Notes under the pieces: model-generated | The model's database searches: none | Told to the model about the DNA's origin: nothing | Seen by the model: only the letters and a program-made list of their open reading frames with translations | Made by a program: the position numbers and the translations under genes | Assembly (NCBI GenBank): GCA_001464585.1 | Contig: LNFF01000001.1 | Span: forward strand, 1-42,733 | DNA length: 42,733 nucleotides | Direction of reading: 5' to 3' | Source of the DNA: Gammaproteobacteria bacterium Ga0077554 | Lineage (GTDB): Bacteria > Pseudomonadota > Gammaproteobacteria > Ga0077554 > Ga007554 | Shown: positions 2,274 through 37,009 of the stretch, in pieces | How the letters are laid out: each line of letters opens with the position of its first letter | How positions within the stretch are numbered: the stretch's first letter is position 1

Positions 2274-3221
2274 ATGAAACCACCATTACCCGGCTTCACC
2301 AAAATCACCCGACCCAAAGCCTCGCACATGGAGGAAGATCAGGACAGAGCGGAAGACACCCTAGCCCTGTTGCATCAGGCGGGCGACCGGGATAATGTTG
2401 CGTGCCTGATTGCTGCGCACGCGTCCGATCTGGTGATAAGCGACCGTCCGCACATCCTGAAAATTTACACCCTGGACCGCTTCACGGTGCTGCTGCGCGA
2501 CGACCAGCCGCTTACGTTCTCTGGCAAAACGCAAAAACGTCCCCTGGAACTGCTCAAGGCACTGATCGCCCTCGGCGGACGCGAAGTGGGCGTGCAGACG
2601 CTCATTGATGTGCTGTGGGGAGACGCCGACGGTGACGCGGGACAGAACTCATTCAACACCACCTTACACCGCTTGCGCAAATTGCTTGGCGAAGAACGCG
2701 CGCTGGTGGTGCAAGACGGGCGTCTCACGCTCAGTGCGCATTATGTGTGGGTGGATGCCTGGGCATTCAGTCGCATGCTGGGGTCAATTGATGGGGCGAT
2801 ACAAATTGGTGATGGCGCACGGCTTGAGGAATTAACAAACAGGATTTTCGCCTTGTACCGCGCGCCTTTTCTTGGGGATATCGACGCGCCTTGGGCAGTG
2901 CCCATGCGCGAACGCCTGCGTAGCCGCTTTCTGCAGCATATCCTGCAAATCGGTGACCACTATGGAAATGTCCAGCAGTGGCGTGACGCTGTACGTCTCT
3001 ATGAGTGCGCGCTGGAAATCAATCCGCTGGCAGAGGATCTCTATCGCCGTCTCATGACAGCGTACCTTCATCTTGATCGCCGTGCCGATGCGCTGCGGGT
3101 CTATCAGCGTTGTGAACAGGTGCTGGGCACATCCTTTGGTGTTCAACCTTCCCACGAAACCCGGTTATTATGTGATGGCCTGGCTATTGTCATCCCGAAC
3201 GTAGTGAGGGATCTTGCTTAA
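2274..3221 (+). CDS. Stand-alone BTAD/SARP-like transcriptional regulator
   Basis: A 315-aa protein, counted from the ATG at 2274, which has GGGGA 8 nt upstream; an in-frame ATG at 2208 is less likely. The middle is an OmpR/SARP-like winged helix (about residues 60-150, containing RPLELLKALIALGG and FNTTLHRLRKLLG). The C-terminal half is an all-helical bacterial transcriptional activator domain (about 155-300, with NPLAEDLYRRLMTAYLHL and ADALRVYQRCEQVL). These domains often sit on large MalT- or AfsR-like ATPases; here no NTPase domain is present. The last ten residues ([10 protein letters not shown]) are encoded by a dispersed repeat that runs through the stop codon. Target genes are unknown; the neighbours are a sugar module and nadK. 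Confidence 0.75.
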   Translation: MKPPLPGFTKITRPKASHMEEDQDRAEDTLALLHQAGDRDNVACLIAAHASDLVISDRPHILKIYTLDRFTVLLRDDQPLTFSGKTQKRPLELLKALIALGGREVGVQTLIDVLWGDADGDAGQNSFNTTLHRLRKLLGEERALVVQDGRLTLSAHYVWVDAWAFSRMLGSIDGAIQIGDGARLEELTNRIFALYRAPFLGDIDAPWAVPMRERLRSRFLQHILQIGDHYGNVQQWRDAVRLYECALEINPLAEDLYRRLMTAYLHLDRRADALRVYQRCEQVLGTSFGVQPSHETRLLCDGLAIVIPNVVRDLA

Positions 3222-3248
3222 GATTTCTCCCGGTGGTCGAAATGACAG
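3189..3248. repeat. Family A dispersed repeat, copy 1
   Basis: Begins GTCATCCCGAACG and ends CGAAATGACAG; the two ends are imperfect inverted repeats, so the whole element can fold into one long hairpin. It overlaps the 3' end of the BTAD regulator gene and supplies its last codons and stop. Close relatives of this repeat occur at 3254, 6251, 9603, 18116 and 22236. Confidence 0.8.
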
Positions 3249-3253
3249 GGGTT

Positions 3254-3324
3254 GTCATCCCGAACGCAGTGAGGGATCTTGCGTAAGATTCCTCCCCCCG
3301 CTTTCGCGAGGGTCGGAATGACAG
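3254..3324. repeat. Family A dispersed repeat, copy 2 (tandem with copy 1)
   Basis: A second copy starting GTCATCCCGAACGCAGTGAG, six bases after copy 1 and in the same orientation. Its second half carries an extra C/G-rich stretch (CCCCCCGCTTTCGCGAGGG) that reappears in inverted form in the copy at 22261. It fills most of the gap between two convergent genes and could act as a bidirectional terminator. Confidence 0.78.
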
Positions 3325-3371
3325 GGGAATACCCTGCTGCTTGTGGCAAGGTTTTTTATTTAGGATTATCT

Positions 3372-6250: not shown

Positions 6251-6294
6251 GTAGTGAGGGATCTTGAAGATCCCTCACTACGTTCGGGATGACA
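6251..6294. repeat. Rearranged family A repeat: perfect hairpin in the dnaK leader
   Basis: Positions 6251-6281 form a perfect inverted repeat: 15-nt arms beginning GTAGTGAGGGATCTT with a single-base centre. This is followed by the rest of a family A end (GTTCGGGATGACA). It looks like two repeat halves joined head to head. It lies between the sigma-32 promoter and the dnaK start, so it would be transcribed into the dnaK 5' leader. Confidence 0.82.
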
Positions 6295-6331
6295 CTTATT
6301 CTTTACGTTCAAGACCAGGAGATATCAGCAT

Positions 6332-9602: not shown

Positions 9603-9716
9603 TGTCATCCCGATCCTTGCTTAAACTGTCATCCCGAACGCAGTGAGGGATCTTGGGAGATCTCCCATCTTCTTCGGGGCCCAAGACAAGGATTCCTCGC
9701 GGCGCTCGGAATGACA
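9603..9716. repeat. Family A repeats between convergent dnaJ and glgB
   Basis: A truncated start (GTCATCCCGATCCTTGC, from 9603) is followed by a long copy from 9628 (GTCATCCCGAACGCAGTGAG) ending CTCGGAATGACA at 9716. The centre is expanded compared with the copies near 3.2 kb by a GGGAGATCTCCC palindrome and a short insertion. It occupies the gap between two convergent genes, where it could serve both as a hairpin terminator. Confidence 0.75.
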
Positions 9717-9763
9717 TAAATATACCCATAGCTTCCGGCGAGTATATTTATTTCCTGATTGAT

Positions 9764-12029: not shown

Positions 12030-12125
12030 TGGCGGTCGCTTCCGGCATCCGACCGCCATGGATGGCGGGAGGTAGGGCAACGCAGGAGCAGTTGCCGGGA
12101 TGCGCAAGAACCGCCATCCATCCAT
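12030..12125. repeat. Family B dispersed repeat between glgB and glgC
   Basis: G/C-rich segment with internal inverted repeats around GACCGCCATGGATGGCGG. The 27-nt stretch 12073-12099 is identical, in reverse complement, to 26195-26221 between fliQ and fliR. GGGATGCGCAAGAACC also occurs at 19521-19536 inside the unrecognised gene after the PadR regulator. Confidence 0.75.
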
Positions 12126-15268: not shown

Positions 15269-16752
15269 GTGATGCAAAGTATGGGATCGCAAAGCACGCA
15301 CCTTAATCTATGTGGTAATCTGTGCACGGATAGACGCAGGGCAGGTATTTTATTACACCCCACCTCGCTGCCTGATGGCGACTTTGGGCCGGACGCATTT
15401 CGCTTTATCGACTTCATGGCAGCGTGCGGCATGGCCGTCTGGCAAATGCTGCCACTGGGTCCCACGCATGACGATGGCTCACCCTATCAATGCCTGTCTG
15501 TGCATGCGGGTAATCCGCGCTTGATCAGCCTGGAAATGCTGGTGCAAAGCGGATGGTTGCCAGCAGAAAGTCCCGCATCTGATTCCACTGAGCCAACTGA
15601 TTCAGCAGCGCATCGCTCTTCCTGCCTTACGCAAGCATACCAGGGATTTATGCAGCGCGCCTCCGCAGAAGAGCATGCCGCGTTTAAATCATTTCTCTCA
15701 CAACACTATTGGCTGAAAGATTTTGCCCTGTATACCGCCTTGCACCAGGAAAATGCAGCGCGCTCCTGGCTGGATTGGCCAGTGTTATTGCGCGATCGCG
15801 AACCCCAGGCTTTGGAAGAAGCACACCAGCGCCTCGCCGATGTAATAGAGCAAATTTGTTTTGAGCAGTTCATATTTTTCCGTCAGTGGTATGCCCTCAA
15901 GCAGTACGCCAATGAACGTGGCATCCTCCTGTTTGGCGACATGCCCATTTTTGTCGCGCATGACAGTGCTGACGTATGGACGCACCGCCACTACTTCAAG
16001 CTGGATCAAACCGGGCATCCCCTGGTAGTTACGGGTGTGCCACCCGATTATTTTTCAGCGACGGGACAGCGTTGGGGTAATCCGCATTATGAATGGGAGC
16101 GGATGCAAGCCGACGGTTTTCAATGGTGGATAGAGCGTATAACCACCCAGTTTGCCTTATTTGATTTAGTGCGTATTGATCATTTCCGTGGCTTCGAAGC
16201 CTGCTGGGAAATCCCGGCGCAAAATCCCACGGCCGAGGGCGGCCGTTGGGTTCAGGTGCCTGGCGATGCTTTGTTTGGCGTGTTACAGGAAAAATTCATG
16301 GCGTTACCCCTGGTAGCGGAAGACCTGGGCATTATTACCCCGGAAGTTGATGCCTTACGCGAAAAATATCATTTACCGGGCATGAAGATTTTACAGTTTG
16401 CTTTTGAGGGTGGCCCAACCAATCCTTACCTTCCGCACAACCATAAAAAAGACAGCGTACCACCCTCGGCTGGTTCCAGGAATTATCTTATCCCGCGCAA
16501 AACTACATCATGGAATATCTGGCCAAACCGCTGGAATCCATGCCCTTGCCATTGATACGCAGTGCGCTTGCTTCGGTGGCGTGTCTGGCAATCATTCCCA
16601 TGCAGGATGCATTACGGCTCGACGCCACACACCGCATGAACTTGCCCGGTACCGCGCAGGGTAACTGGCGCTGGCGCTATACGTGGGATCAAGTGCCAGC
16701 CGACCTGGCGGCGCGTTTGCGGCGCATGGTGGAGATGTACGGTAGGTTGTGA
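15269..16752 (+). pseudogene. malQ: 4-alpha-glucanotransferase malQ, disrupted by an internal out-of-frame deletion
   Basis: Amylomaltase (GH77), which disproportionates maltodextrins. Reading from GTG 15269 gives an intact N-terminal two thirds: GILLHPTSLPDGDFG, RIDHFRGFEACWEIP (nucleophile Asp) and LPLVAEDLGIITPEV (acid/base Glu). After HNHKKDSV (ending 16459) the frame is lost and stops at 16555. The other frame resumes at 16459 with TTLGWFQELSYPAQNY and continues through SALASVACLAIIPMQDAL and MNLPGTAQGNWRWRY to a stop at 16752. Family members have about nine residues, including THDND, between DSV and TTLGW. Their loss equals a deletion of about 28 nt and removes the third catalytic Asp, so the product should be inactive. 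Confidence 0.88.
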
Positions 16753-16773
16753 GGGGGCTACCTTGCTATATTG

Positions 16774-16795
16774 CCCCATTGCTGGGGTATTTTCA
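16774..16795 (+). terminator. Weak terminator-like hairpin after malQ
   Basis: CCCC (16774-16777) and GGGG (16784-16787) flank a 6-nt loop, followed by TATTTTCATTT. A short stem with an imperfect T-run, placed 22 nt after the malQ stop. A weak candidate for the end of the glycogen operon. Confidence 0.35.
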
Positions 16796-16942
16796 TTTGT
16801 TGCCTGGATGATCTGCAATTAAAGCGGGATTCGCATTGAATCTCTTGGGGTTTGGAACCCTCGCTACGCTCTCTCTGCAGCTTGCTGCGTTTATTGTCAT
16901 CGCCCTTATCATTTCAGGCGAAGTGAGCAACTGTGTTTCAAG

Positions 16943-18115
<1,173 letters not shown>

Positions 18116-18153
18116 AGGGATCTTAAGATTTCTCGCTGCGCTCGAAATGACAG
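18116..18153. repeat. Truncated family A repeat beside the IS110 element
   Basis: AGGGATCTTAAGATTTCTCG through CTCGAAATGACAG is the right half of repeat A; the left half (GTCATCCCGAACGCAGTG) is missing and IS110-linked sequence lies in its place. This marks a probable insertion junction. Confidence 0.65.
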
Positions 18154-18184
18154 GAGAATCCTTCGCCGCTTGCGGTGGGATTCT

Positions 18185-22202: not shown

Positions 22203-22555
22203 TGAATAAAGTGGGATACTGGGTTTCGGTTTACTGTCATCCCGAACGCAAAGAATAACTGTCATCCCGACCCCCGCGAAAGCGGGGGGAGGGATCTTTT
22301 AAGATTCCTCGCGGTGCCCGGAATGACATAGAACATCCTCACCAGACGGATTTTATTATCCATCTGAATGCGATGAGGAATCTGGCCTAGAGTCATCACC
22401 ACCTTCACAATGACCTTCATTGCTGCACTCACCCATCAAAATCCCCGCCATATTTTCGCCATGCTAATGCCACTGTAGTTGTCAATTTGCTGTCAGCCTC
22501 CTGAAAAATATCTTTAACACACTAATTTATATGTATAAAAAATAAAACATTTTTA
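22203..22555. other. fliK-fliL intergenic region with family A repeats
   Basis: More than 400 bases separate fliK from fliL. A repeat A fragment (GTCATCCCGAACGCA, 22236-22250) and a fuller copy (22261-22328) fill the first part; the latter carries CCCCCGCGAAAGCGGGGG, a strong hairpin. The rest (22330-22555) has no gene that I can support; it ends in an A/T-rich tract just before the sigma-54 site. TGTCAATTTGCTGTCAG, near 22478-22494, vaguely resembles a FleQ-type site, but I would not call it. Confidence 0.7.
22236..22328. repeat. Family A repeats between fliK and fliL
   Basis: One 15-base fragment (22236-22250) and one longer copy (22261-22328) beginning GTCATCCCGA and ending GGAATGACA, in the same orientation. 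The longer copy contains an internal C/G hairpin that is the inverse of the one in the copy at 3254. May terminate fliK transcription. Confidence 0.75.
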
Positions 22556-26186: not shown

Positions 26187-26360
26187 AGATTTCTCCCGGC
26201 AACTGCTCCTGCGTTGCCCTATCTTCCGCCGTGCATGGATGCACAAGTGCCGCCAGAGGCAGGATGCCGGAAGCAGCCGCCATCCATGGCGGTCGCCTTT
26301 TGTCGAAATGACGTAAGGTCACACACTTTGTCATTCCGAGTCTCGAACGAAGGTGAGAAC
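26187..26360. repeat. Composite of dispersed repeats between fliQ and fliR
   Basis: Holds several repeat pieces: GTTAAGATTTCTCCCGG (family A-like), a family B segment (26195-26281) and GAGTCTCGAACGAAGGTGAGA (26338-26358, also at 20047). Positions 26220-26281 are the reverse complement of the segment inside cheA (35428-35489), 57 of 62 bases identical by eye. A minus-strand reading frame here encodes the same peptide type (GILPLAALVHPCTAE) but has no other sign of being a gene. Nothing else is seen in the gap. Confidence 0.8.
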
Positions 26361-34032: not shown

Positions 34033-34210
34033 GAGGTTCTGTTGACATTCTGGATCGTCGCGAGGGTGCGTAGGGTCAACTACTGCAAAGTGCACGGACT
34101 GGAGGATGACGCAGGCGTACTTGCGGTACGTTAAGGAGTCCGTAAGGAGTACGCTTTGCAGTAGTTGACCCTACACAGCCGCAATAGATTCAGAACGTCA
34201 ACAGAACCTC
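34033..34210. mobile_element. MITE-like inverted-repeat element between cheY and cheZ
   Basis: 178 bp with terminal inverted repeats GAGGTTCTGTTGACATTCTG (34033-34052) and its complement at 34191-34210 (19 of 20 match). A second perfect 20-bp pair lies inside, starting TAGGGTCAACTACTGC at 34071-34090 and complementary at 34154-34173. No coding capacity and no clear target-site duplication. The termini suggest a non-autonomous relative of a DDE transposon; the parent family is not identified. It sits 8 bp after the cheY stop and 16 bp before the cheZ start. Confidence 0.82.
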
Positions 34211-34993: not shown

Positions 34994-37009
34994 ATGAGCA
35001 TAAATCTGGATGACGATATACTCCAAGATTTTCTTGTTGAGGCAGGAGAAATTGTCGAAAAGTTAAGTGAACAATTGGTCAATCTGGAGCAGTCTCCCCG
35101 CGACTCTGATTTATTAAATGCAGTTTTCCGGGGATTTCATACCGTTAAAGGGGGCGCGGGATTTTTGGGATTAACAGCGTTAGTGGCGGTATGCCATCGC
35201 GCAGAGGATGTATTTAATACCCTTCGCCAGGGCAAGCGCTATGTTGACGCAGCGCTGATGGATGTAGTGCTCGTTGTCCTTGATGTTGTGAATGAAATGA
35301 TGGGCTCGATTCGCGCCGGTGAAGATCCTTCTCCGGCAGACCCTGCTCTGTTAATTAAATTAGATGAGTTCTCGAAGCCACAAGATCAAGCGATATCACA
35401 ACCTGCTGAGGTTATCAAAAAAAATCAGGCGGTCGCTCCCGGCATCCTGCCTCTGGCGGCACTTGCGCATCCATGCACGGCGGAAAATACACCGATACCA
35501 ACTGATCCAGTTTCTGATAAAAAAAACGCATCCCCTGATGAAATATTTTTGGCCAAGGAGGGGGAGATAACGGATGATGAGTTCGAAGCTCTGCTTGATC
35601 AACTGCAGGGGAAAGATGGTCATGAAACCACTAAAAATAATGCTGATACTGGGCTGATATCCGTACCGGAGAACGTAAATTCTGATGCTATCACGGATGA
35701 TGAATTTGAGGCCATATTAGACAATCTTCACGGCAAAAAGCCTGGGGAATCAGATATCAATGCTTCACCACAAACAGAAAAAGAATCTGTGGAAAAAGCC
35801 ATAGCGGAGCATGCTCCATCACCACCCAAAGATTCTCCCCAAGTTGAAACAACCGTACGCGTAGATACAAAACGCCTTGATGATATTATGAATCTGGTGG
35901 GAGAGTTGGTGTTGGTACGTAATAGACTTTCTACACTAAAGTCTTCAATGGTGCAGGAGGAGGCGATACAGGTTATTGGTAATCTTGATCTGGTGACTGC
36001 CGACTTACAAAATGCAGTCATGAAAACACGAATGCAGCCAATAAAAAAAGTTTTTGGGCGATTCCCCCGTGTGGTGCGTGATCTCGCACGCAGCCTGAAT
36101 AAAGAGATTTCTTTGGAACTTCATGGAGAAGATACGGATCTTGATAAAAATCTGGTGGAAGCATTAGCCGACCCGCTTGTGCATCTGGTGCGTAACGCAG
36201 TGGATCATGGTGTAGAAATTCCAGAAGTGCGTTTAGCTTGCGGGAAGCCAAGGGAAGGAAAGGTCGTGTTATCTGCACAGCAGGAAGGTGATCATATCCT
36301 TCTTGTTATTCAGGATGATGGGGCAGGAATTGATCCAGAAGTTTTACGGCGTAAAGTGGTAGAGAAAGGATTAATGGATACAGAGAGCGCCTCACGTCTT
36401 GATGATCGCGGCTGTTTTAACTTGATCTTCCTTCCTGGGTTCTCAACAAAAAATCAGATATCGGATGTTTCGGGTCGTGGCGTGGGAATGGATGTAGTTA
36501 AAACACGCATTTCTCAATTGAATGGTGTTGTAGAAATAGATTCGGTTTTGGGTAAAGGCAGTAAATTTATCATTAAATTGCCTTTAACGCTCGCCATTAT
36601 GCCTACTTTAATGGTGCTTCTTGACGCGCAAATATTCGCCATGCCGCTCGTGAATGTAAGTGAAATATTCAATCTTGATACTGCGCGCATAAATACCGTA
36701 AATGCCCAGCTAGTGGTAATTGTCAGAAACAAAGCCATTCCCTTGTATTATCTTCGGGAATGGCTGGTTAAAGGAGCATCCCCCGGCAATCGCTCCCCGA
36801 CCGGATACGTAGTAGTAATAAATATATCTGAACATCGAATCGCCTGTGTAGTTGAGCAACTTATAGGACAGGAAGAAGTGGTTATCAAGCCGTTAGGCGC
36901 TTTATTGCATGGCACACGTGGATTTGCGGGAGCCACCATTACCGGGAATGGCCGTATAGCCCTTATCCTGGATTTATCAGGGCTAATTGGATCGTATACG
37001 CATCATTAA
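34994..37009 (+). CDS. cheA: Chemotaxis histidine kinase CheA (with in-frame family B repeat in the linker)
   Basis: Receptor-coupled kinase that phosphorylates CheY and CheB; 671 aa. The N-terminal Hpt domain (1 to about 105) has phosphoacceptor H49 in GFHTVKGGAGFLG. A long linker (about 130-285) lacks a classical P2 domain. It carries two copies of ITDDEFEAxLDxLxGK (about 192-207 and 233-248), likely response-regulator docking peptides. Dimerisation domain (RLDDIMNLVGELVLVRNRL), ATPase domain (LVRNAVDHGVEIPEVRL, DDGAGIDPEVLRRK, GRGVGMDVVKTRI) and a CheW-like domain follow. Residues about 145-165 (core APGILPLAALAHPCTAEN) are encoded by a dispersed repeat, 35428-35489. Confidence 0.97.
   Translation: MSINLDDDILQDFLVEAGEIVEKLSEQLVNLEQSPRDSDLLNAVFRGFHTVKGGAGFLGLTALVAVCHRAEDVFNTLRQGKRYVDAALMDVVLVVLDVVNEMMGSIRAGEDPSPADPALLIKLDEFSKPQDQAISQPAEVIKKNQAVAPGILPLAALAHPCTAENTPIPTDPVSDKKNASPDEIFLAKEGEITDDEFEALLDQLQGKDGHETTKNNADTGLISVPENVNSDAITDDEFEAILDNLHGKKPGESDINASPQTEKESVEKAIAEHAPSPPKDSPQVETTVRVDTKRLDDIMNLVGELVLVRNRLSTLKSSMVQEEAIQVIGNLDLVTADLQNAVMKTRMQPIKKVFGRFPRVVRDLARSLNKEISLELHGEDTDLDKNLVEALADPLVHLVRNAVDHGVEIPEVRLACGKPREGKVVLSAQQEGDHILLVIQDDGAGIDPEVLRRKVVEKGLMDTESASRLDDRGCFNLIFLPGFSTKNQISDVSGRGVGMDVVKTRISQLNGVVEIDSVLGKGSKFIIKLPLTLAIMPTLMVLLDAQIFAMPLVNVSEIFNLDTARINTVNAQLVVIVRNKAIPLYYLREWLVKGASPGNRSPTGYVVVINISEHRIACVVEQLIGQEEVVIKPLGALLHGTRGFAGATITGNGRIALILDLSGLIGSYTHH
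35428..35489. repeat. Family B repeat inside the cheA reading frame
   Basis: 62 bp reading GGCGGTCGCTCCCGGCATCC... and ending GGCGGAAAATA. It matches the reverse complement of 26220-26281 between fliQ and fliR at 57 of 62 positions by eye. It is open in the cheA frame and encodes a hydrophobic, cysteine-containing patch in an otherwise polar linker. Confidence 0.85.

Follow-up and report, generated by a model that had tools for sequence, protein, structure and literature searches.

The window examined here is a stretch of 42,733 nucleotides from Gammaproteobacteria bacterium Ga0077554, and it holds a cheA gene with a short dispersed repeat inside its coding sequence. The first-pass annotation described this repeat as a 62-bp segment (35428-35489) that lies in cheA without breaking the frame and is otherwise confined to non-coding gaps. 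The 671-codon open reading frame does run through, and the segment is indeed repeated, with a 92% match over 62 nt to the reverse complement of 26220-26281. The cheA gene and the copies found in the window are given below, scored with two covariance models, of which R1 was built from an alignment (A1) of 29 copies and R2, which is broader, was built with divergent subfamilies.

34994-37009, + strand: cheA, uninterrupted open reading frame of 671 codons (671 aa), with orthologues in six family genomes
35432-35482, + strand: 51-bp element inside cheA, encoding CheA residues 147-163 (VAPGILPLAALAHPCTA); target base G at 35431; R1 match 35431-35482, 77.8 bits, E 1e-14
26227-26277, - strand: second copy, lying between fliQ and fliR in non-coding sequence; target base 26278; R1 match 26278-26227, 80.6 bits
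19969-20021, + strand: divergent copy with a 52-bp unit, in a non-coding gap, its stems different but paired; R1 36.2 bits, R2 67.6 bits
19488-19539, - strand: divergent subfamily copy of the GGUGGUUCUU... type; R1 31.2 bits, R2 63.5 bits
12034-12133, + strand: interrupted copy in which one unit contains a second, probably by nesting, located in a non-coding gap upstream (5') of a glgC-like gene; weak, R1 11.9 bits

The last of these overlaps the related sequence previously placed at 12030-12125; within it, 12050-12115 on the other strand gives a similarly weak R2 match of 26 bits. The window also contains a second dispersed repeat family, mostly intergenic (3187-3334, 6267-6297, 9624-9718, 18122-18163 and 22259-22330), with the motifs TTGTCATCCCGAACG...GGGATCTTG and AAGATTTCTCGC...CGAAATGACA, and copies of the 51-bp type are sometimes found within or next to it. 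Between the CheY and CheZ genes there is an inverted repeat (34064-34180), the arms of which are 32 nt long, 88% complementary and 53 nt apart. At 15269-18019, a 4-alpha-glucanotransferase-like open reading frame is cut early, just before an IS110-type transposase open reading frame (16943-18019, - strand), which suggests disruption by an IS.

The length of the repeating unit was determined by setting copies against the empty sites of relatives. In 27 comparisons covering 19 sites, the net insertion was exactly 51 bp and the target-site duplication was 0. Of 55 copies, 50 have a G immediately before the element; copies 38 and 61 are preceded by T, and the empty site of a near relative likewise has T, indicating that the 52-column alignment includes the target base as its one additional position. 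Since the net insertion is 51 bp and the target base falls outside the unit, the unit in cheA comprises 35432-35482, and the rest of the 62-bp match is chance or shared flank. It adds 17 residues to CheA, not the 20 or so originally counted. The edges of the cheA copy were taken from the empty sites of its sister copies together with the reading frame; at the cheA insertion point itself, no alignable empty site was found in relatives at the DNA level.

Searching the whole genome for further copies, as the first-pass annotation had proposed, showed the repeat to be dispersed. With 76 bp around the cheA insert as query, the window genome (G000; 2.91 Mb, a draft of 44 contigs) yielded 40 scored full or nearly full copies (BLAST, E down to 1e-19), while R1 at E<=1e-3 recovered 111 and R2 at least 139. 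The first two of these counts far exceed chance. Aligned copies have sharp edges and unrelated flanks. R1 copies number 120 in the second genome of the genus, 35 in the third and 13-52 in four genomes of the sister genus; across the family there are thus 13-120 copies in six other genomes and 1 in a seventh. The draft state of the G000 assembly might raise the suspicion of chance similarity, an assembly chimaera or contamination, but the copies are spread over many contigs and eight family assemblies, they are also present in genomes assembled as one contig, G088 and G138 among them, and the empty sites differ by exactly 51 bp. The cross-assembly copies and exact empty sites refute this explanation, to which we attach practically no weight.

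The arrangement of the copies shows how they are inserted. Tandem copies are spaced exactly 51 bp apart and lie head-to-tail. In the RlmL, EtfB and GcvPA genes of a relative (G002), a second 51-bp unit is nested in the first with the frame kept, and the nested units have other stem sequences, an identical folding plan and a length of 51 bp each. It can be seen from these comparisons that insertion is precise, generates no target-site duplication, usually takes place just 3' of a G, and occurs in either orientation, in intergenic DNA and in genes; some insertions are tandem or land within an existing copy, again in 51-bp steps. Orthologous sites that are filled in some genomes and empty in others show that insertion took place during the history of the family. 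The insertion in CysE and that at copy 59 are common to G000 and G002, those in PheT and PurH are private to G000, and such shared and private insertions show gain over time.

The CheA insert is situated, as was originally noted, in the linker between the Hpt domain and the docking-type motifs, and is a hydrophobic segment with one cysteine in otherwise polar surroundings. Alignment of CheA from relatives shows it to be lineage-specific, since the orthologues of G001, G003, G004, G005, G006 and G007 all lack it. The same residues in distant CheA proteins would count against an origin from the repeat, and neither the insert peptide nor the repeat was found at any of 80 other CheA loci of Gammaproteobacteria (a named collection, searched within 3 kb). 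CheA of the groundwater MAG JACPOZ01 is identical in its aligned part to that of G007, marking JACPOZ01 as a member of the family. The incomplete assembly of G002 has no cheA orthologue. An AlphaFold model of CheA residues 1-300, with 33 relatives, predicts no structure for the part that holds the insert, which follows the Hpt bundle (last helix 117-126) and precedes the first motif helix (194-206); pLDDT is <50 for residues 151-163.

The first-pass annotation regarded the repeat as recruited, arguing that either the linker tolerates anything or the insert is used. Adoption as a functional component of CheA, for instance as a hydrophobic docking or regulatory segment of the linker, would fit a hydrophobic, cysteine-bearing segment in a polar linker and a copy that is intact and in frame. 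We consider it extremely improbable, because the insert is missing from the six family orthologues and the 80 other loci, has no predicted structure, and recurs as an identical peptide, in an identical frame, in unrelated proteins that include EtfB, GpsA and HflD, which indicates that its hydrophobicity comes with the element. The predicted disorder, and the presence of the element in frame in dozens of unrelated enzymes, argue that the insert is explained by the element itself (51 bp, or 17 codons, with six open frames) and not by a property of CheA. Of the two options, then, toleration is upheld and use is not indicated: the insert would be a neutral passenger of a predicted disordered linker.

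Host genes were called for the 73 best copies from the frames running through the element, NCBIfam naming and alignment of family orthologues. A codon-usage model for the coding flanks gave 25 copies in frame on both sides versus 1 same-strand shift, but was too weak alone, and therefore homology was used to call coding flanks. Of the 73, at least 42 occupy an in-frame position within a recognised gene (two of them as a tandem pair in one gene), so the restriction to non-coding gaps, which holds for the other copies in the window, does not extend to the genome: there, the majority of the best copies are found within genes. In G000 the hosts include PheT, PurH, SMC, Alr, Glk (glucokinase), RimO, CoaX, GpsA, EtfB, RlmL, HflD, Pgl, KdsD, QueE, LpxK, YgfZ, CysE, AmiC, CopA, GcvPA, FabD (at the C-terminus), a PEP-CTERM system ATPase and CheA. 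Most of the host alignments show relatives that lack exactly the 17 residues in an otherwise intact protein, as seen for orthologues of PheT, CoaX, RimO, HflD, Glk, Pgl, GpsA, PurH, CopA and YgfZ, among others. Because 51 bp is divisible by three and the consensus is open in six frames, insertion into a gene normally adds 17 residues with no frameshift or stop. Two shared inserts were usable for scoring selection (dN/dS), the SMC pair being left out because it was misaligned by one codon; with one synonymous and one replacement change, they are too few to be informative. In a RAYT-like gene (L339:1149-1710, G005:C4), the element junction creates an in-frame stop directly after HIDYIH and ends the open reading frame, indicating that element insertions can break genes.

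Openness of the consensus in all six frames has a dinucleotide-shuffle probability of 0.11 and so is no proof of selection by itself. Usage of the frames is strongly skewed. Among the 42 genic copies, 19 are read in rev2 (AVHGCTSVARGRMPEA), 6 in rev3 and 1 in rev1 (RRAWMHKCRQRQDAGSD), with 11 in fwd1 (VASGILPLATLVHPCTA), 5 in fwd3 and none in fwd2 (SLPASCLWRHLCIHAR), compared with approximately 5-13 per frame expected when coding sequence is scored with a weight matrix of the target site (p ~1e-5 to 1e-6). This skew suggests selection against readings that are rich in Trp and Cys or strongly cationic. Copy length is also associated with location: simple 52-bp copies are found in recognised genes in 0 of 8 cases versus 42 of 66 for 51-bp copies (Fisher p 0.0007), a test that is partly pseudo-replicated and not fully independent since a single subfamily, whose members have flanks in common, accounts for most 52-bp copies. 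That subfamily (L369, L370, L371 and L372 in G000) has the common flanks gtcattt...gagaaatctt and looks as if it belonged to a larger composite in intergenic DNA.

Byp elements of Magnusiomyces mitochondria are small mobile hairpins in protein genes that are skipped by the ribosome, and their length need not be a multiple of three. The 51-bp element is likewise a mobile hairpin within genes, although nothing in it points to skipping. If it were removed from the message or skipped in this manner, the host proteins would lack the 17 residues, which would suit a sharp-ended hairpin element with strongly conserved pairing in very conserved enzymes. However, neither process needs a length divisible by three or a stop-free sequence, whereas genic copies are 51 bp long and simple 52-bp copies lie outside genes. 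Moreover, frame usage is non-random, both orientations are found in genes, and the stop made by the element in the RAYT-like gene of G005 terminates that open reading frame. We therefore judge removal or skipping to be very improbable.

The element is not restricted to one family. R1 at E<=1e-5 detected it in 38 of 274 genomes sampled from the class Gammaproteobacteria, the 38 representing 34 genera, and 21 copies from eleven genomes were taken as a sample from outside the family. One genome of 1.4 Mb has in-frame copies in TsaD, RsmE, GlmM, TopA, a P-type ATPase and Tgt, and in others the in-frame hosts are MoaA, MurD and MetE; the MurD gene of G087 (L363:1128-2702, G087:C55) carries two head-to-tail copies, which add 34 residues in frame. 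The frames used in these distant genomes are mostly rev2, with some fwd1 and one fwd3. Near the TsaD gene there is a match to Rfam sX9, a Xanthomonas sRNA, just above the gathering score (L352:434-508, G119). No element match was found in the phage and plasmid records searched. One IMG/VR contig with Mu-like tail genes (IMGVR_UViG_3300012964_000155; L388:1435-1506) has one copy at the start of a baseplate-type gene, and on the strength of this copy phages may be a vehicle for the element between hosts.

Folded as a single strand, the element forms a 5-bp stem enclosing a 4-bp hairpin, followed by an ACTT linker, a 5-bp hairpin and a GGCG or GTCG tail. There are 7 compensatory cells within A1 against 1.4 in shuffles, 19 against 5.1 among the 21 copies from other families, and 43 against 11.8 +/- 4.0 in the set with divergent subfamilies; for the latter, the covariation score is 0.464 versus 0.182 when shuffled and <=0.17 in slid registers. 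The counts from alignment A3 lean towards structure, since A3 had been fitted to the model; A5 was aligned by sequence alone. As read from these aligned copies, the two-hairpin structure is maintained by compensatory change. No Rfam family matches at the element at the gathering threshold, nor at E up to 0.5.

Taken together, the CheA insert is very probably one copy of a small, non-autonomous, mobile 51-bp palindromic element that behaves like a Rickettsia palindromic element (RPE) and is tolerated as translated 17-residue inserts. Precise joining 3' of G, the lack of duplication, the conserved hairpins and the head-to-tail tandems suggest a folded single-stranded intermediate, and the element would move in this form through the action of a trans-acting enzyme. 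Copies would survive where 17 residues are tolerated, in linkers, loops and termini, and, by analogy with the Rickettsia RPE insert, would be translated within the host protein.

One candidate for the mobilising enzyme is a RAYT transposase, in which case the element would be a tagged REP of the GTAG or CGTC superfamily. It is a small hairpin element without target duplication, each of the eight family genomes has PF01797 (Y1/RAYT-like) genes, some copies end in CGTCG, and tagged REPs can be intragenic (PMC3733652). Nonetheless, this assignment seems unlikely to us. Terminal GTAG is absent from the aligned copies, and so is the unpaired terminal CGTC of CGTC-tagged REPs, the consensus 3' tetranucleotide being GGCG and the CGTCG copies having one base beyond CGTC. 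Instead of the single stem of 8-9 bp with a loop of 4-5 and a CCA tail, there are two hairpins in 51 bp, with stems of 5, 4 and 5 bp, an internal loop and the ACTT linker. None of 20 RAYT/Y1 loci is flanked by the element on both sides, and only three have it nearby. Finally, REPs keep mainly to intergenic DNA, whereas the majority of the best copies here lie within genes.

The behaviour of the element is RPE-like, yet the size and stem of RPE-1, the tag and stem of REPs and the target duplication of MITEs all failed to apply, and we found no description of it among open-licence papers. We tentatively raise the possibility that it belongs to an undescribed class of structured mobile elements, present in many Gammaproteobacteria, which could have evolved to be compatible with coding (17 codons, usually stop-free, with a bias to the mildest frames) and may move by a route other than that of RAYT/REP or MITE systems. 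Such a class, if real, would provide free-living bacteria with a natural source of short peptide insertions in their core proteins. In-frame mobile palindromes were formerly held to be typical of Rickettsia and a few REP-rich genomes, and here more than 40 are found in one genome, many of them in core enzymes. The tolerance of conserved proteins for 17-residue insertions, and the movement of a 51-bp element with neither target duplication nor a known transposase, can be tested in bulk. For annotators, lineage-specific 'insertions' with peptides like those of fwd1 and rev2 are mobile DNA and not domains.

Palindromic DNA inserted in frame is known from Rickettsia and Wolbachia (PMC2229807). RPEs are 105-146 bp long, form long stem-loops from terminal inverted repeats and belong to obligate intracellular alphaproteobacteria; their inserts are recorded for 19 protein genes, and Gmk carrying such an insert has been produced and was active (reviewed in PMC2229807). 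Like RPE-1 and its relatives, and the Wolbachia palindromic repeats (Ogata, Claverie), the element described here is a dispersed palindrome, found in frame in conserved genes and also between genes. Unlike them, it is 51 bp long, has two adjacent hairpins and resides in Gammaproteobacteria with genomes of mostly 2-4 Mb, where more than twice as many host genes are found in one genome. Tagged REPs are 20-40 bp long, consist of a stem tagged at its end with GTAG or CGTC and are mostly intergenic, and CGTC elements are mainly head-to-head dimers (Di Nocera 2013, PMC3733652). With these, including RPE-4 and RPE-6 of R. conorii, the element shares the character of a short hairpin repeat that is found in many species, occurs in groups and is sometimes in frame in open reading frames, but its consensus is untagged and its tandems are head-to-tail. 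It also resembles QMITE1 and QMITE2 of Coxiella, where MITEs overlap open reading frames mostly at their 3' ends (PMC5896051), and other bacterial MITEs, in being non-autonomous, dispersed and in some cases fused in frame to open reading frames (PMC5896051, PMC2229807). MITEs, however, are 70-400 bp long with terminal inverted repeats and usually target duplications, whereas this element measures 51 bp and inserts without duplicating its target.
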